In this document: positions 34,563 to 41,965 of the stretch, piece by piece
Layout of the letters: every line of letters starts with the position of its first letter
Numbering within the stretch: the first letter of the stretch is position 1
Origin: Chloroflexota bacterium
GTDB taxonomy: Bacteria; Chloroflexota; Limnocylindria; Limnocylindrales; CSP1-4
Assembly: GCA_003141245.1 (NCBI GenBank)
Contig: PLLE01000020.1
Location: 67,253-109,238 of the forward strand
Length of the DNA stretch: 41,986 nt
Direction of reading: 5' to 3'
Made by a program: the position numbers and the translations under genes
Notes under the pieces: model-generated
What the model was told of the DNA's origin: nothing
The model's database searches: none
The model's input: the letters and a program-made list of their open reading frames with translations, nothing else

Positions 34563-35867
34563 ATGCCCAAACAGCTTGTCGTCCAGAAGTTCGGCGGCTC
34601 GTCCGTCGCCAACGCCGACCGAATCCGTCGCGTAGCCGCACGCGTCGCCCGTGAGCGGGCGACCGGCTGCGATCTCGTGGTCGTCGTCTCGGCGATGGGC
34701 GATGCCACCGACGAGCTGCTGGCCCTCGCCGGCGCCATCACCGACGATCCGGATCCGCGCGAGCTCGACATGCTCCTCGCGACCGGCGAGCACCAGAGCG
34801 CCACTCTCGTGTCGATGGCGCTGCACGCTCTGGGCGTGCCGGCAATCGCTCTCACGGGCGCCCAGGCGGGCATCACCACCGACGGCAAGTACGGCAAGGC
34901 GCGCATCGCCGGCATCGACCCCGAGCGCATCTTCAAGGAGATCGGCGCCGGCCGGGTCGTGATCGTGGCCGGCTTCCAGGGCCAGAGCCAGGTCGATCCT
35001 GGCCTGTCCGAGATCACCACGCTCGGTCGTGGCGGGTCGGACACGACCGGTGTCGCCCTCGCGGCCGCTCTGGAGGCGGACCGCTGCCAGATATTCACCG
35101 ACGTCCGCGGCATCTACACGGCCGACCCCCGGCTCGTGCCGGACGCACGCCAGCTGCCGGTCGTCTCGTACGAGGAGATGATGGAGCTGGCGCACCAGGG
35201 CGCCCAGGTGATGCAGGTCCGGGCCGTCGAGCTCGGCTGGGTCAACAACGTCGTCATCGAGGTGCTGAGCTCGTTCGAGGACGTCCCCGGCACGCTCATC
35301 AAGGAGGATCCGTTCGTGGAGCAGCGCAACAAGGTTCGCGGGCTGGCCCACGACCGCAACGTGGCCAAGGTGACCCTCGTTGAGGTCCCGGACCGGCCCG
35401 GCGTAGCTCATGCCGTCTTCGCACCACTGGCCGAGGCGGGCGTCAACGTCGATACGATCGTCCAGAACGTCGGCCACCACGGCACGACGGACCTGAGCTT
35501 CACGATCACGCGCGGCGACCTGGCCAAGACGAAGCGCATCCTGGAGCCGATCATCCGCGAACTCGGCTTCCGCGAGATGACGACCGACTCGGCCATGGCG
35601 AAGGTCTCCATCGTCGGCGCCGGAATCCAGAACGCCCCGGGCTACGCATCCCGAATGTTCGCTGCGCTCGCCGAAGCGGGCGTCAACATTGAGATCATCT
35701 CGACCTCGGAGATCCGCATCACCTGCATGATCGCCGAAGACCAGGTCGAGACCGCCGTTCGCGCCCTGCACAAGGCCTTCTCGCTCGAGGAGCCGGAGCC
35801 GGTGGTGCAGGATCAGGCGGGCGAAGCCGCGGCCAGCTCCGGTGGGGCGGCAAAGACGAGCGCGTGA
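34563..35867 (+). CDS. lysC: Aspartate kinase
   Basis: First enzyme of the aspartate family (lysine, threonine, methionine), phosphorylating aspartate. The 434 residues begin with VVQKFGGSSVAN and include VVVVSAMGDATDELL, the TLGRGGSDTTGVAL motif and FTDVRGIYTADPR. Two C-terminal ACT domains (about 265-405) should mediate feedback by lysine and/or threonine. ATG 34563 fits both the family alignment and an extended -10 seven bases upstream. A low-complexity acidic/Ala tail of about 30 residues ends the chain. The stop overlaps birA (GTGA), so the lead gene of the biotin/fatty-acid run is an amino-acid enzyme. With hom, thrC and thrH nearby, the route from aspartate is largely represented. Confidence 0.96.
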   Translation: MPKQLVVQKFGGSSVANADRIRRVAARVARERATGCDLVVVVSAMGDATDELLALAGAITDDPDPRELDMLLATGEHQSATLVSMALHALGVPAIALTGAQAGITTDGKYGKARIAGIDPERIFKEIGAGRVVIVAGFQGQSQVDPGLSEITTLGRGGSDTTGVALAAALEADRCQIFTDVRGIYTADPRLVPDARQLPVVSYEEMMELAHQGAQVMQVRAVELGWVNNVVIEVLSSFEDVPGTLIKEDPFVEQRNKVRGLAHDRNVAKVTLVEVPDRPGVAHAVFAPLAEAGVNVDTIVQNVGHHGTTDLSFTITRGDLAKTKRILEPIIRELGFREMTTDSAMAKVSIVGAGIQNAPGYASRMFAALAEAGVNIEIISTSEIRITCMIAEDQVETAVRALHKAFSLEEPEPVVQDQAGEAAASSGGAAKTSA

Positions 35868-36709
35868 CCACGAGCGTCGCGTTTCTCTCGCGACACGAGC
35901 GGTTCCGATCGGTCCCCTCCACCAACGACGTCGTCCGCACCTGGTTGACCGCAGGAACCGCCGAGGTCTGTCTGGCTGTGGCCGGCGAGCAGACCGCCGG
36001 TCGCGGGAGGTCGGGTCGGTGCTGGGTGGCCCCGAGCGGCACCGCTCTATTGCTTTCCCTCGGCTTCCGGCCGGGCTATCTTCCGGCGGACCGTCTGTGG
36101 CGGCTTGCGGCCGTCGTCTCCCTGGCGATGGCCGACGCGGCGGAGGCGGTCGCGGGGCTGGCAGTCGGCAGGCTGCGCCTGAAGTGGCCCAACGACATCG
36201 TCGTGGAGGTCGCGAGCGGCGCGGGCGGTGCAGCGGGCGGGCTTCGAAAAGTCGCCGGCGTTCTGGGCGAGACCGAGGGCGTTGGCACGGCCGACCAGTT
36301 GGCCATCGTGGGGATCGGCATCAACGCCGACTGGCCGCGGGCGAGCTTCCCGGTCGAGCTGGCCGACTCCATGACGAGCTTGCGCGAGGTTTCCGGCGGC
36401 CGGCCAATCGACGCCGACGAGCTGCTCGAGGCCTTCCTGCTGCGGGTCGAGCCGCGCGTGATGGCTTTGCGCGACGGCCACTTCGACGTGGCCGGCTGGC
36501 ACGACCGACAGGTGACCACGGGACGAACGGTTCGACTGGAACGTTCCGGCGAGGAGGCGGAGGAGGTCCTCGCCGTGGGCGTCGACGGAGCCACGGGAGC
36601 GTTGCTGGTCGAGGATTCGGCCGCTCCTGGCGTGGATCGAGAGGTGCTCGTGGGCGAGGTCGTGCACGTCCGCCTGGCCGCCGCCGGCGGCGGGGATGTA
36701 ACGCAATGA
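35864..36709 (+). CDS. birA: Biotin--[acetyl-CoA-carboxylase] ligase, no DNA-binding domain
   Basis: Attaches biotin through biotinyl-AMP to the carrier lysine of biotin enzymes. The 281 residues show the biotin/ATP-binding GRGRSGRCW at 46-54, KWPNDIVV near 107-114 and KVAGVLGE with the catalytic Lys. A small C-terminal SH3-like domain follows. It lacks the N-terminal winged helix of E. coli BirA, so it is the monofunctional type without repressor function. GTG at 35864 overlaps the lysC stop and its own stop overlaps the sigma gene start (ATGA). Its presence near accA, accC and accD makes functional sense, yet the AccB-like protein in this operon has no acceptor lysine. Confidence 0.93.
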   Translation: MTTSVAFLSRHERFRSVPSTNDVVRTWLTAGTAEVCLAVAGEQTAGRGRSGRCWVAPSGTALLLSLGFRPGYLPADRLWRLAAVVSLAMADAAEAVAGLAVGRLRLKWPNDIVVEVASGAGGAAGGLRKVAGVLGETEGVGTADQLAIVGIGINADWPRASFPVELADSMTSLREVSGGRPIDADELLEAFLLRVEPRVMALRDGHFDVAGWHDRQVTTGRTVRLERSGEEAEEVLAVGVDGATGALLVEDSAAPGVDREVLVGEVVHVRLAAAGGGDVTQ

Positions 36710-37344
36710 GCCGGACGGTGTTTGGTACTTCGGAGGAGGCAGCCAGGCCGGCCCGCCTGGATCGCGATCGCGGTCTGGTGGAGGCGGCGCGGCGCGATCC
36801 CGCCTGTTTCGACGCCCTGTATAGGAAGTACCTCGCCCAGGTGTACAGCTACGCTTTCTACGAGCTCCGCGATCACCACGCCGCGGAAGACGCCACCGAG
36901 CGTGTGTTTATGCAGGCTATGACCGGCCTGCCCCGCTTCGAGGAGCGGGCCGACTCGTTCGTCGGTGCCGGTTCCGGCGGCGAGGTATCCGCCGACGCGT
37001 CGACGTTCCGGGTCTGGCTCTTCCGTATCGCGCGCAACGTCGTCGCGAACGAACGCCGCCGCGACCGTCGTCGCCCGGTGACCCCGCTCGAGGATGCCCA
37101 AGGCCTGGCCGCCGCAGACGATGTCGTCGAAGCTGTTGCGGCGCGCGAGGCGGGCGGCGCGGCCTGGCAGGCCGTGGCGCGGCTGCCCGAGGATCGACGC
37201 CGGGCCGTCGTACTGCGCTTCGTCGACGAGATGTCCACGGCGGAGATCGCCGAGGTCCTCGGCCGCTCCGAGGGCGCAGTCCGCGTTCTGTTGCATCGGG
37301 CCCTGCGCTCGGTCGCGGCCGATCTGCGCGGGAGGCTCAGCTGA
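36706..37344 (+). CDS. ECF-type RNA polymerase sigma factor
   Basis: Sigma-70 family member of 212 residues. Region 2 is seen in FDALYRKYLAQVYSYAFYELRDHHAAEDATERVFMQAM. Region 4 is LPEDRRRAVVLRFVDEMSTAEIAEVLGRSEGAVRVLLHRAL, a helix-turn-helix recognising -35 elements. The linker between them is unusually long and Gly/Ser/Ala-rich (about 80-100), ending in FRVWLFRIARNVVANE. ATG at 36706 overlaps the birA stop; the next gene's ATG overlaps its own stop. Regulation by the downstream membrane protein is likely by analogy with other ECF pairs. Why a sigma factor sits inside this metabolic operon is open. Confidence 0.9.
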   Translation: MSRTVFGTSEEAARPARLDRDRGLVEAARRDPACFDALYRKYLAQVYSYAFYELRDHHAAEDATERVFMQAMTGLPRFEERADSFVGAGSGGEVSADASTFRVWLFRIARNVVANERRRDRRRPVTPLEDAQGLAAADDVVEAVAAREAGGAAWQAVARLPEDRRRAVVLRFVDEMSTAEIAEVLGRSEGAVRVLLHRALRSVAADLRGRLS

Positions 37345-37982
37345 TGCTGGGCGGCGGACCCCGCGACGCCCGCCGGACCGAGCGCTATCTCGACGGCCTG
37401 ATGGAGGCCGAGGAGCGCGGCGTCGCGGATGTCCCGATGGACGTCGACATCGATTCTGCGGTTGTGCTGGCCGCGCGCCAGCTTCGAGCCGATCTCATCC
37501 GCGTGCACCCGTCGTTCCGCTTCGAGGAAGGCCTTGCCGCGCGACTGGCGCGGACCGCCGGTCGGATGAGCGCCGGGCTTTCAGCCATCGAACCCGCGGA
37601 ACAGGTGGTCGTCCGCACCGCACCCGCGCCGATCGCGCCCTTCCGCGCCTCCGGCGTGGCCGCTTGGGCCGAGTTCGCGCCGGCCGAGCTCGCCGCGGCC
37701 GAGCTCGCCGCGTCGGATGATGGCATCGCCACTCCCGCCGCGGGTCTGCGCAAACTCCCCGCCTTTGCCACCAGAACTCCCCGTCCGCTCATCGTCGGCG
37801 GCGTGGGCGTGGCCTCGGCGGCCATCTCCATCGGCGCGGTCTACGTCGCCTGGCGATGGTCGCGCGCCGCTCACACGCCAATGGTTCGCGCCGTGCGCGC
37901 CGCCAGGTCCGGTCGCGGAGATGCCTCCGGGCACGGCCGACGCGCCGGTGTCCTCCACGGAATCCTCGGAGTGACCTCCTGA
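37344..37982 (+). CDS. Putative single-span membrane protein, candidate anti-sigma factor
   Basis: Protein of 212 residues without recognisable family. An N-terminal soluble part of about 140 residues has one short helical region (QLRADLIRVHPSFRFEEGLAARLARTAGRM). Ala-rich low-complexity sequence follows, then a single transmembrane helix at about 148-170 and a short basic tail. The topology and position directly after an ECF sigma gene (TGATG overlap) fit an anti-sigma factor, but the zinc motif HxxxCxxC of ZAS proteins is absent and no cysteine is found. A 15-bp direct repeat (GGCCGAGCTCGCCGC twice, 37682-37711) encodes AELAA twice. The stop overlaps accD (TGATG). Confidence 0.6.
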   Translation: MLGGGPRDARRTERYLDGLMEAEERGVADVPMDVDIDSAVVLAARQLRADLIRVHPSFRFEEGLAARLARTAGRMSAGLSAIEPAEQVVVRTAPAPIAPFRASGVAAWAEFAPAELAAAELAASDDGIATPAAGLRKLPAFATRTPRPLIVGGVGVASAAISIGAVYVAWRWSRAAHTPMVRAVRAARSGRGDASGHGRRAGVLHGILGVTS

Positions 37983-38935
37983 TGCCGGTTCGACTCCCGT
38001 TCCGACCCCGCCGCGACACATACCCGCCCGACCTGTGGACCAAGTGTCCCGGTTGCGCGGAGATGCTGTTCAACAAGCAGCTCGACAAGACGCTGCGGGT
38101 CTGCCCGAACTGCGGCCACCACTTCCGGATTTCGGCCAAGGCTCGCATCGAGCAGCTCGTGGACGGCGGCTCGTTCGTGGAGCGAGACGCGGACCTGACG
38201 CCTGTCGACGCCCTCGGGTTCGTGGACCTCAAGGCCTATCCCGATCGCCTGATGGCGGCCCAGCTGGCCACCGGCCTGCGCGACGCGGCGATGTGGGGCC
38301 TGGCCGCAATGGGCAGCAAGCCGATCTCGATGTGCGTCATGGACTTTGGCTTCATCGGCGGATCGATGGGCTCCGTCGTGGGCGAGAAGGTGGCCCGAGC
38401 CGGTGAGGCCGCCATAGCCGAGCGCATCCCGCTTCTGATCGTCTCGTCCTCGGGCGGGGCGCGGATGCAGGAGGGCACGTACTCGCTGATGCAGCTCGCC
38501 AAGACGATGAGCGTGGTCGAACGGGTGAAGGCGGCCCGCGTGCCGTTCATCTCCGTCATGACGGACCCCACGACGGGCGGCGTCTTCGCTTCCTTCGCGG
38601 CAGTCGGCGACGTGAACCTGGCCGAGCCCAACGCCCTGATCCGCTTCGCCGGCGACCGCGTCTCGGCCGGAACCATCGGCGAGGAGTTGCCGCCGGAATA
38701 TGCCCTCGCCGAGTTCTGGATGAGCCACGGTTTCGTGGACCGGATCGTGCCCCGGGCCAAGCTGCGCGACGAGATCATCACCCTGCTCGGGTTCCTTGTC
38801 GCTCCTTCCAACGGCCACGCTGAATCCGCGCCCAGCCCCACCTCCCGACCGCGGTCGTTCCTGAACGCCCTGACCGGGGCGCTCAGCTCCGACGGCAACG
38901 GCGACCAGAATCGTGGGGAGGCCGGCAATGGTTGA
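37982..38935 (+). CDS. accD: Acetyl-CoA carboxylase carboxyltransferase beta subunit
   Basis: Carries the zinc ribbon Cys22-x2-Cys25 ... Cys41-x2-Cys44, then the crotonase-like carboxyltransferase domain with DFGFIGGSMGSVVGEK, SSSGGARMQEG and MTDPTTGGVFASFA. Partners AccA to transfer CO2 from carboxybiotin to acetyl-CoA, the first step of fatty acid synthesis. A low-complexity tail of about 45 residues follows. ATG at 37982 shares one base with the upstream stop and the end overlaps accA by 8 bases, so coupling is tight. Length (317) is normal. Confidence 0.96.
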   Translation: MPVRLPFRPRRDTYPPDLWTKCPGCAEMLFNKQLDKTLRVCPNCGHHFRISAKARIEQLVDGGSFVERDADLTPVDALGFVDLKAYPDRLMAAQLATGLRDAAMWGLAAMGSKPISMCVMDFGFIGGSMGSVVGEKVARAGEAAIAERIPLLIVSSSGGARMQEGTYSLMQLAKTMSVVERVKAARVPFISVMTDPTTGGVFASFAAVGDVNLAEPNALIRFAGDRVSAGTIGEELPPEYALAEFWMSHGFVDRIVPRAKLRDEIITLLGFLVAPSNGHAESAPSPTSRPRSFLNALTGALSSDGNGDQNRGEAGNG

Positions 38936-39905
38936 CCGACTCCTCGGCCGACACGGGTCCGACCAGGGCCACACTGACGACCCCGTCTCTGCGGTGTGGG
39001 CCCACGTCCAGGAGGCTCGCAACCTCAAGCGCCCGCATACCCTCGAACTGCTCAAGGCCATGGCTGACGAGTTCGTCGAATTGCACGGCGATCGGGTCTT
39101 CGGCGACGACTCGGCGATCGTGACCGGCTTCGCCCGGATCTCCGGCCGGCGGGTCGTGGTGCTGGGCTTCCAGAAGGGCCAGGACACCGAAGAGAACATC
39201 CGCCGCAACTTTGGGCTGCCGCACCCCGAGGGTTACCGCAAGGCCATGCGGATCATGGACCTGGCCGAGCGGTACGCCATGCCGGTGCTCACCTTCGTCG
39301 ACGTCCAGGGCGCCTTCCCGGGCGCCGCAGCGGAGGAGCGCGGCATCGCTGAGGCGATCGCCAGCTCCATCGGCATGATGACCCGCCTGCGCACCCCGAT
39401 CGTCGTCGTCATCACCGGCGAGGGCGGCTCAGGTGGAGCCCTCGGTCTGGCCGTCGGCGACACCATAGTGGCCCTCGAGAACTCGATCTACTCCGTCATC
39501 AGCCCGGAGGGCTGCGCCACGATCCTGTGGCGGTCCGGCGAGCACAGCCACGAGGCCGCCGTGGCGATGAAGGTGACCGCCGGCGAGCAGCAGGAGATGG
39601 GCATCGTCGACATCGTCATTCCCGAGCCGGGCGAGGGCGCCCACACGGATCCGGCCGAAACGGCGAGGCGGATCAGGGAAGTCGTCCTCGAGCGGTTCGA
39701 CGCCCTCGGCCGCGTCCCGCTCGACGAGCTCGTCGAGGCGCGCTTCAGGAAGTTCCGCGTCATGGGCCCGTACATCGTCGCCGACCGACCGGTGGCTCCG
39801 CCGGAGCGCACTGGCATCGCCGACCGGCTGCGGGGCCTGCTGTCCAGCAGGCCGTCCATGCCCGGCATGAAGCGCGACGTCCCGCCCGGCCGCGAGGAGG
39901 TGTAG
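38928..39905 (+). CDS. accA: Acetyl-CoA carboxylase carboxyltransferase alpha subunit
   Basis: Alpha subunit partner of AccD, 325 residues. It shows VWAHVQEARNLKRPHTLELL, LHGDRVFGDD, the GFQKGQDTEENIRRNFG segment, and the DVQGAFPGAAAEERGIAEAIA loop. The oxyanion-hole glycines ITGEGGSGGALGLAVGD and ISPEGCATILWRS follow. Only the C-terminal tail (after about 290) is low in conservation. ATG at 38928 has GGGGAGG upstream and overlaps accD by 8 bases. The next gene starts 3 bases after its stop. Confidence 0.96.
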   Translation: MVDRLLGRHGSDQGHTDDPVSAVWAHVQEARNLKRPHTLELLKAMADEFVELHGDRVFGDDSAIVTGFARISGRRVVVLGFQKGQDTEENIRRNFGLPHPEGYRKAMRIMDLAERYAMPVLTFVDVQGAFPGAAAEERGIAEAIASSIGMMTRLRTPIVVVITGEGGSGGALGLAVGDTIVALENSIYSVISPEGCATILWRSGEHSHEAAVAMKVTAGEQQEMGIVDIVIPEPGEGAHTDPAETARRIREVVLERFDALGRVPLDELVEARFRKFRVMGPYIVADRPVAPPERTGIADRLRGLLSSRPSMPGMKRDVPPGREEV

Positions 39906-39908
39906 CCG

Positions 39909-40601
39909 ATGCCCGAGAATCGAAACGGCGCGACTTCCCCAGCCCCCCGCGGCGCCGCCAAGGCCTTATCCGCCGAGGCAGTTTCGGGCCAAGGCCCCGA
40001 CGTCCGCGCCGAGCGCGACCACCTGGCGATCTCCCGCCTGGCGGACGATCTGCTGCCCGCGCTGATCGCGAAGCTGACCGCCGGCGGTCTGGGCGAGATC
40101 GAAGTTCGAGAAGGGTCCTGGAAGGCGCGGCTGCGCAGGCCCGCCGGTTCGGACGAGGGCCGCGGGGTCGCCGCCTGGAGCTCCCTCGACAGCCACTCCG
40201 GGCACGGCCACGCTTTAGGGCGCGGCCCGGCCGCGAGCCACGGCCGTGGCACCGCCGAGGAGCGCGCCCGTCGAGCCCGCGAAGAAGAAGAGGCCGAGGA
40301 GTTGGCGCGTCTCCCCATAGTCGCCACTTCTCCGGCAGTCGGTATCTACCAGCCCCGCAAGGACCTGGCCGTCGGAATTCGGGTCCGCGCCGGCGATCGC
40401 ATCGGCACCGTCGACGTACTCGGCGTCCGCGAGGACGTGATCGCTCCCGCGGACGGCGTGATCGGGTCAAGCCTGGCCGAGGCCGGCGAGGCCGTGGAGT
40501 ACGGGCAGGAGCTGATCCGCATCGAGCTGTCGGAGAATGCCCGCGGCCTCGATGCCAACGGGGCCGACCGTGAGGCGGCCGCAGTGCTCGGGGAAGCTTG
40601 A
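39909..40601 (+). CDS. accB: BCCP-like biotin carboxyl carrier homologue lacking the biotinylated lysine
   Basis: Protein of 230 residues in the accB position. The N-terminal half (about 1-135) is a low-complexity Ala/Gly/Arg/Glu stretch with a His/Gly-rich segment. The C-terminal 90 residues align with the biotinyl domain: SPAVGIYQPRKDLAVGIRV, GDRIGTVDV, IAPADGVIG and EYGQELIRIE. Where BCCP has E-A-M-K-(L/M)-M, this reads D169-V-L-G-V-R174: Gly172 takes the place of the biotin-accepting Lys and no lysine lies in the loop. It therefore cannot be biotinylated there. A lysine-free relative in plants is BADC, an ACC regulator; similarity here is inferred. It overlaps accC (TGATG). A canonical BCCP may lie outside the window. 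Confidence 0.85.
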   Translation: MPENRNGATSPAPRGAAKALSAEAVSGQGPDVRAERDHLAISRLADDLLPALIAKLTAGGLGEIEVREGSWKARLRRPAGSDEGRGVAAWSSLDSHSGHGHALGRGPAASHGRGTAEERARRAREEEEAEELARLPIVATSPAVGIYQPRKDLAVGIRVRAGDRIGTVDVLGVREDVIAPADGVIGSSLAEAGEAVEYGQELIRIELSENARGLDANGADREAAAVLGEA

Positions 40602-41965
40602 TGTTCAGCAAGGTCCTGATCGCCAACCGAGGCGAGATCGCCCTTCGCATCCTTCGCGCCTGCCGCACCATCGGCATCGGCGCGGTTGTCGCATACAGCG
40701 AGGCCGACCGCGACAGTCTGGCCGCCCAGCTCGCCGACGAGGCGATCTGCATCGGGCCGTCCGACGCGCGCCGCAGCTATCTCTCCGCCCCCGCGGTGAT
40801 CTCGGCCGCGGTCGTGACCGGCTGCGACGCGATCCATCCCGGCTACGGATTCCTCTCCGAAGACGAGGGGTTCGCCGATGTCGTCCGCGCTCACGGCCTG
40901 ACCTTCATCGGTCCTTCGGCCGAGGTGCTGGAGCACTTCGCCTCAAAGGAGGCGACCCGCCGCCTGCTCGAAGCTCACGGCCTGCGCACGATCCCGGGGT
41001 CGGGGATGCTCCGCGACGAGGCCCACGCCCTCGAAGAGGCCGAGCGCATCAGCTACCCCGTTCTCATCAAACCCTCCGGCGGCGGTGGCGGCAAGGGAAT
41101 GCGGCTCGTCCGGACAGCGCGAGAGCTCGAGGCCACCTTCAAGGTCAGCCGCTCGGAGGCCAAGGCTGCCTTCGGCGACGATGCCCTGTATATGGAGAAG
41201 TACCTCGGCGACAACCGCCACGTCGAGATCCAGGTGGCCGTGGACCGCTTCGGTCACGCCATCCACCTGGGCGAGCGCGACTGCTCCGTCCAGCGTCGCC
41301 ACCAGAAGATCATCGAAGAGACGCCCAGCCCGGCCCTGACCGAGGCCGAGCGCCAGGACCTCTGCCAGAGAGCCGTCCGAGCCGTGGTCGAGGCCGGGTA
41401 CGAGAACCTGGGCACGCTGGAGTTTCTGGTGGACTCCAGGGGCGAGGCCTACTTCATCGAGATCAACTGCCGCATCCAGGTCGAACACCCGATCACCGAG
41501 ATGTGCACCGGCATCGATTTGATCGCTTTACAGATCAAGATCGCGGCCGGCGAGCCGCTCGGCATCAACCAGGCGGACGTCGTCTCTCGCGGCCACGCCA
41601 TCGAGTTCCGGATCCTTGCCGAGGACCCGAGCAACGACTTCCGGCCCCAGGGCGGCCAGGTGCTCGGTTACCTCGCCCCGGGCGGTCCGGGCGTCCGCAT
41701 GGACTCCCACCTGTACCCCGGCTACGAAGTGCCGCCTTACTACGACTCGCTCCTCGGCAAGCTGTCGGTCTGGGCGCCGGATCGCGCCCAGGCGATCGCC
41801 CGCGGCGACGCGGCCCTGCGCGAGCTGCTCGTGGACGGCCTCACCACCAACATCGAACTCCACCGGGCCATCCTCGCCAACCAGGTCTTCATCGACGGCA
41901 AGGTGACGACGGACCTGCTCGACCGCGTCGGCAGCGCACCGTTCGTCGCCGCCGGAAACCGCTGA
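40601..41965 (+). CDS. accC: Biotin carboxylase subunit of acetyl-CoA carboxylase
   Basis: ATP-grasp enzyme of 454 residues carboxylating biotin on the carrier. It starts MFSKVLIANRGEIALRILRA. The Gly-rich ATP loop is KPSGGGGGKGMRLV (157-170). The metal/substrate sites include EKYLGDNRHVEIQV, QRRHQKIIEE and EINCRIQVEHPITE with the catalytic Arg291. Residue 290 is Cys where Thr is usual (N-T-R-I-Q in E. coli). ATG at 40601 is preceded by GGGGAAG; the upstream TTG 40598 is in frame but less likely. It ends 21 bases before the window edge, where CCAGGAGC could be the ribosome binding site of a further gene. Confidence 0.96.
   Translation: MFSKVLIANRGEIALRILRACRTIGIGAVVAYSEADRDSLAAQLADEAICIGPSDARRSYLSAPAVISAAVVTGCDAIHPGYGFLSEDEGFADVVRAHGLTFIGPSAEVLEHFASKEATRRLLEAHGLRTIPGSGMLRDEAHALEEAERISYPVLIKPSGGGGGKGMRLVRTARELEATFKVSRSEAKAAFGDDALYMEKYLGDNRHVEIQVAVDRFGHAIHLGERDCSVQRRHQKIIEETPSPALTEAERQDLCQRAVRAVVEAGYENLGTLEFLVDSRGEAYFIEINCRIQVEHPITEMCTGIDLIALQIKIAAGEPLGINQADVVSRGHAIEFRILAEDPSNDFRPQGGQVLGYLAPGGPGVRMDSHLYPGYEVPPYYDSLLGKLSVWAPDRAQAIARGDAALRELLVDGLTTNIELHRAILANQVFIDGKVTTDLLDRVGSAPFVAAGNR

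Follow-up and report, generated by a model that had tools for sequence, protein, structure and literature searches.

In plant plastids, the heteromeric acetyl-CoA carboxylase (ACC) contains BADC, a protein which resembles the biotin carboxyl carrier protein (BCCP), lacks the biotinylation motif and coexists with real BCCPs (PMC11926652). According to the same article, BADC assembles biotin carboxylase (BC) with BCCP and is unique to the plant enzyme, and a 'glue' subunit is mentioned for bacteria. The role of BADC is disputed: it is regarded as an inhibitor on the one hand (PMC7712654) and as a glue on the other (PMC11926652). A survey of Brassica (PMC9578262), in which the word BADC is absent, reports a BCCP-like motif, C-Y-I-E-Q-L-G-G, with E-Q-L-G where BCCP has E-A-M-K, and several of the genes are given as orthologues of an Arabidopsis BCCP-like protein. 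The motif is taken there as a new biotinylation domain and is counted as such despite the absence of a lysine at the acceptor place.

Within the phylum of the present locus, BC1 of Chloroflexus aurantiacus consists of a BC fused to a BCCP and is biotinylated on Lys553 (PMC11077971). Two BC dimers are joined in this enzyme by an eight-stranded barrel, which is formed by the N-terminal hairpin region of BCCP and not by the biotinyl core, unlike the E. coli BC-BCCP tetramer, which is held together by the BCCP cores (PMC11077971). A bacterial lysine-free BCCP or a bacterial counterpart of BADC was not found in the literature searched, which lay largely outside the subscription journals; a term search of an article on the evolution of biotin carboxylases (PMC3199775) gave no mention of a bacterial lysine-free BCCP, and one of an article on cotton BCCP (PMC5410604) gave no match. 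Here, we describe a bacterial AccB paralogue (called P1 for simplicity), which in contrast to the carrier part of BC1 is encoded as a separate protein and lacks the acceptor lysine.

An AccB paralogue with glycine at the acceptor position

The window, i.e. the whole stretch of DNA analysed (41,986 nucleotides), comes from a genome of the class Limnocylindria (G000) and contains the following features, of which the neighbour genes were labelled by sequence reading and synteny:

35864..36709, plus strand: birA; a DNA-binding part is not apparent by eye at the N-terminus; sole match to PF03099 that the genome yielded
37982..38935, plus strand: accD, carboxyltransferase beta (sequence label, conserved synteny)
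38913..39905, plus strand: accA, carboxyltransferase alpha (sequence label, conserved synteny)
39909..40601, plus strand: P1, lysine-free AccB paralogue of 230 amino acids with an ATG start (ORF reading, profile matches)
40014..40142, plus strand: N-terminal helix and beta-hairpin region of P1, residues 36-78, corresponding to the BCCP part by which BC dimers are joined in BC1 (hhalign against canonical BCCPs)
40326..40526, plus strand: biotinyl-type domain of P1, residues 140-206 (profile matches, alignment, PDB match)
40413..40424, plus strand: hairpin tip D-V-L-G of P1, residues 169-172, where carriers have E-A-M-K (alignments)
40494..40508, plus strand: V-E-Y-G-Q of P1, residues 196-200 (alignments)
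40601..41965, plus strand: accC, biotin carboxylase (PF02785), the only one found in the genome

The accA stop at 39905 lies three bases ahead of the P1 reading frame, the P1 stop overlaps the accC ATG (TGATG), and the G+C content of P1 at the three codon positions (0.79/0.56/0.82) broadly matches that of the acc genes around it. The first-pass annotation of this DNA had also placed birA in the acc operon; this is not shown, as birA lies upstream on the same strand with two ORFs (by eye) between it and accD. One of the two ORFs in this gap (36709-37982) resembles an ECF-type sigma factor and the other carries a single hydrophobic stretch (both by eye); the latter is a possible anti-sigma factor and might regulate the acc cluster together with the sigma-like ORF. 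That P1 serves as a decoy for a BirA repressor was rejected, if weakly, because the BirA ORF seems by eye to begin at the catalytic part. BirA is the only PF03099 protein matched in G000 although a lipoyl E2 is encoded; a second ligase or transferase was not matched, perhaps owing to the incomplete assembly.

Like AccB/BCCP (TIGR00531; E. coli 4hr7 chain B), P1 is built from an N-terminal domain, a linker and a biotinyl domain, and the best PDB match of its family profile is 4hr7_B, the BCCP of the E. coli BC-BCCP complex (E 1.8e-21). PF00364 matches residues 154-205 with E 9e-4 and 19.5 bits, which is less than the 22.1 bits set by Pfam as cut-off, and by eye the biotinyl domain of P1 has a shorter thumb than that of BCCP. 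The BCCP equivalog TIGR00531 matches residues 52-206 with 26.2 bits as compared to a curated cut-off of 115.2; this is a weak test, which was passed in only 4 of 26 further genomes and in one of these (G187, protein L248) by a lysine-free protein. The homology extends to the N-terminus. When the N-terminal part of the P1 family (26 rows) was compared by hhalign with the BCCPs of the class (20 rows), a probability of 96.9% was obtained; for the other canonical sets it was 93.8% (AccBs encoded next to efp in other Chloroflexota, see below), 87.5% (other BCCPs encoded among fab genes) and 62.4% (mixed outgroup), and three column-shuffled controls made from the profile of the canonical efp-slot AccBs gave 0.0-0.1%.

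In an alignment of 121 rows, whose groups were formed by presence or absence of E-x-M-K and which thus locates the acceptor column rather than measuring the frequency of lysine, this column holds glycine in P1 (Gly172) and lysine in the 58 rows of the three canonical Chloroflexota groups. The acceptor lysine of (E)-x-M-K is therefore missing from P1, whose four lysines are residues 18, 55, 72 and 151, and no lysine stands within 4 columns of this place in any of the 52 lysine-free rows. The replacement of M-K by L-G at the tip is the same change as in the motif printed in the Brassica survey (PMC9578262). Together, the profile matches and the alignment bear out what had been read at 39909-40601 from the sequence alone, namely that this AccB homologue has Gly172 in the acceptor position and no lysine nearby. 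The same 52 rows exclude that the lysine was shifted elsewhere in the tip and, since the lipoyl E2 of the genome is a separate protein, that P1 is a lipoyl protein (E2, GcvH). They also bear on the idea that P1 still carries a group, either on a tip that is modified otherwise or as biotin on another residue. The tip shows the degree of conservation of a functional site, as this idea would have it, but the acceptor place is occupied by glycine, asparagine or arginine depending on the lineage, and we regard such a modification as very improbable.

Conservation in Limnocylindria and the canonical carrier

The tip was readable in 80 genomes of the class, G000 included, which belong to five families (f1-f5), and glycine occupies the acceptor position in all of them; in G037 the sequence is truncated by the end of a contig, and the best match per locus taken without a motif filter also gives glycine. 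An error of sequencing or assembly as the source of the missing lysine, one of the two findings that by the earlier annotation would overturn it, is thereby rejected, and no lysine of P1 maps onto the site, which was the other. P1 follows accA in Limnocylindria and directly precedes accC in f1 and f2; the two are separated by a fabD-like gene (by eye) in one f4 locus, and accC is further off in f3 and f5. The gene order accD-accA-P1-accC-fabF-BCCP-fabH recurs in the class. One genome (G074) holds two clearly different P1-accC-fabF-BCCP-fabH stretches (L045 on contig C25, L046 on contig C29), which points either to a genuine second cluster or to a bin of mixed origin.

The biotinyl domain of P1 is under purifying selection. 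Within the genus, the median dN/dS of this domain was 0.20 for P1 (159 of 171 pairs with dS < 1.5, 19 genomes) and 0.13 for the BCCP (77 of 78 pairs with dS < 1.5, 13 loci); L022, which is broken after its readable tip, was left out of this set and of the tree described below, and in L049 the contig ends ahead of the domain. These data address the view that P1 is a decaying accB relic left behind once a second BCCP took over the carrying. Loss of the lysine does track the presence of a BCCP encoded among fab genes, as relaxed constraint would give. A relic is, however, at odds with the eight closest P1 pairs, of which seven have a dN/dS of 0.08-0.15 and one of 0.37, with the persistence of the gene (matches in 131 of the 151 genomes covered by a protein search, G000 included, not every match having been read), and with L171, G172 and V196-E-Y-G-Q200, which are among the 13 invariant columns of an alignment of 31 members from four families (A1). 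The view is largely refuted.

The source genome (2.54 Mb, 92% complete) yielded three PF00364 proteins, namely the lipoyl E2, P1 and a canonical BCCP of 185 residues with the motif G-L-I-E-A-M-K-L-F-N-E-I. The gene of the latter lies between fabF and fabH, 2.2 kb past the accC stop. The first-pass annotation had suspected a carrier encoded elsewhere, to be sought by a whole-genome search for a second BCCP, and this E-A-M-K protein is such a carrier. With a real BCCP downstream of accC, the three alternatives raised there for P1 (a BADC-like protein, a bridging subunit, a carrier elsewhere) become complementary rather than exclusive. In the assembly as it stands, G000 has one carboxylase and one carrier besides the single lysine-free look-alike; since no other biotin carboxylase was found, the AccC adjoining P1 is its only evident partner. 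Here and throughout, the genomes are incomplete metagenome assemblies, so that 'only one' and 'none' refer to what was found. By hand count, 39 of 59 class genomes have a fab-linked BCCP within the stretch examined; its lysine is readable in 38 of them and cut off by a contig end in the remaining one. A 40th (G110) has it in a further stretch, and in the other 19 none was seen within the stretch examined.

Distribution beyond Limnocylindria and descent

A search of the phylum gave matches in 284 of 400 genomes, class members included. From the best matches listed, 40 stretches outside Limnocylindria were picked by hand so as to spread over families and are thus not a random sample. Their accB-slot proteins lack the lysine in 26 cases (11 with glycine, 11 with asparagine and 4 with arginine at the acceptor place) and retain it in 14. 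In these other Chloroflexota, the gene lies mostly in the accB slot of a pepQ-efp-X-xseA cluster, and the EF-P gene turned up in 22 of the 26 stretches whose protein lacks the lysine and in 10 of the 14 whose protein keeps it. Among all the lysine-free proteins read, four (L124, L125, L138 and L333) have the tip E-A-M-G, so that the lysine alone is replaced; these are possibly young losses. A lysine-free accB-slot protein (L248/L133, G187:C16), with the tip E-T-L-N, scores 118.6 bits against the TIGR00531 cut-off of 115.2 and would therefore be called BCCP by automatic annotation.

No acc gene was seen beside the lysine-free gene in the examined stretches of these other Chloroflexota, so a role in ACC rests on homology there. 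This neighbourhood, mostly efp, pepQ or xseA, is what would be expected if P1 had left ACC and its lipoyl/biotinyl fold now served as a binding module for another partner, and so is a tip that was rewritten across lineages (VLG, SLG, SLN, TLR) and not merely stripped of its lysine. Against such a departure stand the position of P1 in Limnocylindria, after accA and, in f1 and f2, immediately before accC, the N-terminal BCCP domain that was kept, and the accC gene alongside five of the 20 best loci in the group of bacterium HR15 described below. We consider it distinctly doubtful that P1 works with another partner.

Where the copy is lysine-free, a second, canonical BCCP was present in 24 of 26 genomes, in 23 with fabF in the stretch and in one (G216) with accC; it was not found in G193 (76% complete) and G425 (58% complete). 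None of the 14 lysine-bearing genomes showed a fabF-linked BCCP when 30 of their 36 matches were examined; the other six matches were weak (E 2e-8 to 4e-6). Counted by genome, Fisher's test gave p = 3e-8 for the fabF-linked BCCP and 1e-6 for any second AccB-like protein (24/26 vs 2/14); counted by family code (11 vs 10, no overlap), it gave 3e-6, or 3e-5 with the family of G216 as a miss, and all these values ignore the kinship between families and the picking of the sample by hand. The separation is imperfect, as G262 and G304 keep the lysine and yet have other BCCP-like proteins. Four such proteins (L289, L290, L301 and L302 of G304 and G262, family f46), with the tips E-V-M-K-L-M and an unusual G-V-M-K-T-F, stand outside both main types. 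Standalone E-A-M-K-M-x-N proteins of 172-195 codons occur in the lysine-bearing genomes G197, G152 and G403 and are taken for putative carriers of other carboxylases.

The pattern recurs in bacterium HR15, which is unclassified in the taxonomy and which may belong to the Armatimonadota: it has a lysine-free copy with V-L-G and a canonical copy with E-A-M-K-V-F-N-E. The lysine-free protein was matched in 76 of 81 genomes (HR15 and 80 relatives), where the matches beyond the best 20 may in many cases be canonical; glycine occupies the acceptor place in all of these best 20 loci, HR15 included. Eighteen of the 20 genomes (HR15 and 17 of 19 others) hold a second canonical BCCP, which was not found in G512 and G513. 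The lysine-free pattern thus spans five families of Limnocylindria, eleven further families of Chloroflexota and the relatives of HR15, and is wider than the earlier annotation saw.

A tree was calculated from 121 proteins and 147 columns, with the five tip columns removed; it is unrooted, and its bootstrap had not settled. Herein, the 43 fab-linked BCCPs (20 from Limnocylindria, 23 from others) group into a single starred clade (99/94), separate from both the lysine-free and the efp-slot proteins, and the accC-linked BCCP (L255) falls outside this clade. All 31 members of A1 have the motif V-E-Y-G-Q, as do all 14 lysine-bearing efp-slot AccBs, which share it with P1, and it is not kept in the fab-linked BCCPs. 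Tree and motif together place P1 on the side of the ordinary AccB and make the working carrier the divergent paralogue. The best tree contains three changes of the lysine state, and a single origin was not rejected (p-AU 0.31).

A candidate non-catalytic subunit of acetyl-CoA carboxylase

We propose, with a probability of roughly two in three, that P1 is an AccB-derived, non-biotinylated and non-catalytic subunit of heteromeric ACC, which sits together with BCCP in the AccC core in the manner of BADC. That such membership of the AccC-BCCP core is the likeliest role follows from the kept N-terminal domain and fold, the single carboxylase found, the clustered carrier and the overlap with accC. 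In the proposed course of events, the ordinary accB lineage would lose its acceptor lysine where a second, fab-linked BCCP does the carrying. With its N-terminal hairpin domain and its biotinyl fold preserved, P1 would then enter the AccC core alongside BCCP or instead of it and would occupy carrier positions without carrying. It could thereby set the number and arrangement of live carriers per AccC core, as plant BADC is thought to do. From these features we infer that P1 is free of biotin in the cell, binds to AccC/BCCP and exerts a scaffolding or tuning effect on activity; its association and stoichiometry in the AccC-BCCP core and the sign of its effect are inferred likewise.

P1 shares three features with proteins of the BADC type, i.e. 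homology to BCCP in both the N-terminus and the biotinyl domain, the lack of the acceptor lysine and the coexistence with a BCCP. It differs from plant BADC in being bacterial, in being encoded in an acc cluster or in the efp-accB slot, and in the asparagine or arginine which some families have at the acceptor place. The likeness is drawn from the published description of BADC and from the printed tip motif of the Brassica BCCP-like proteins with E-Q-L-G, which are presumably BADC proteins, and P1 itself is known from its sequence alone. The non-catalytic subunits of bacterial acyl-CoA carboxylases would likewise be comparable to P1 as non-catalytic helpers of a biotin-dependent carboxylase; these are epsilon-type subunits and are not known to be related to BCCP in sequence.

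The BADC-like, lysine-free BCCP paralogue put forward by the first-pass annotation remains the best-supported reading; the inhibition suggested along with it is not singled out by the data, which a scaffold fits equally. As a specific inhibitor, the part originally ascribed to plant BADC, P1 would compete with BCCP for AccC and throttle the synthesis of malonyl-CoA upon a signal. The coexistence with BCCP, the kept domains and the BADC-like change at the tip are compatible with this, and in plants BADC was described to compete with BCCP for BC and to inhibit ACCase in the dark (PMC7712654). P1 is, however, encoded within the acc cluster, and its stop overlaps the start of accC, which suggests constant co-production rather than a switch, and according to the opposing study BADC acts as a glue, with data inconsistent with the inhibitory model (PMC11926652). 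A dedicated inhibitor is therefore unlikely, though it deserves consideration next to the non-catalytic core subunit that we favour.

For annotation, the findings are a warning that a protein bearing the BCCP label may lack the ability to carry biotin, as exemplified by the lysine-free L248, which passes a curated cut-off. The accB-slot proteins with and without lysine within one phylum also constitute a natural experiment. Further, we consider it an evenly balanced proposition that giving up biotin was a recurrent and ancient step in the evolution of bacterial ACC, by which AccB became a non-carrying subunit beside a second, fab-linked BCCP; this step would have been taken in Chloroflexota, in the relatives of HR15 and, in the form of BADC, in plants, separately or by descent, and repeatedly through the same change of M-K to L-G. 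If this is true, a carrier together with a lysine-free look-alike would be a standard architecture of heteromeric ACC. With a single biotin carboxylase, a single carrier and a single look-alike found, the bacterial system would offer a small model, open to reconstitution, for settling the BADC question.
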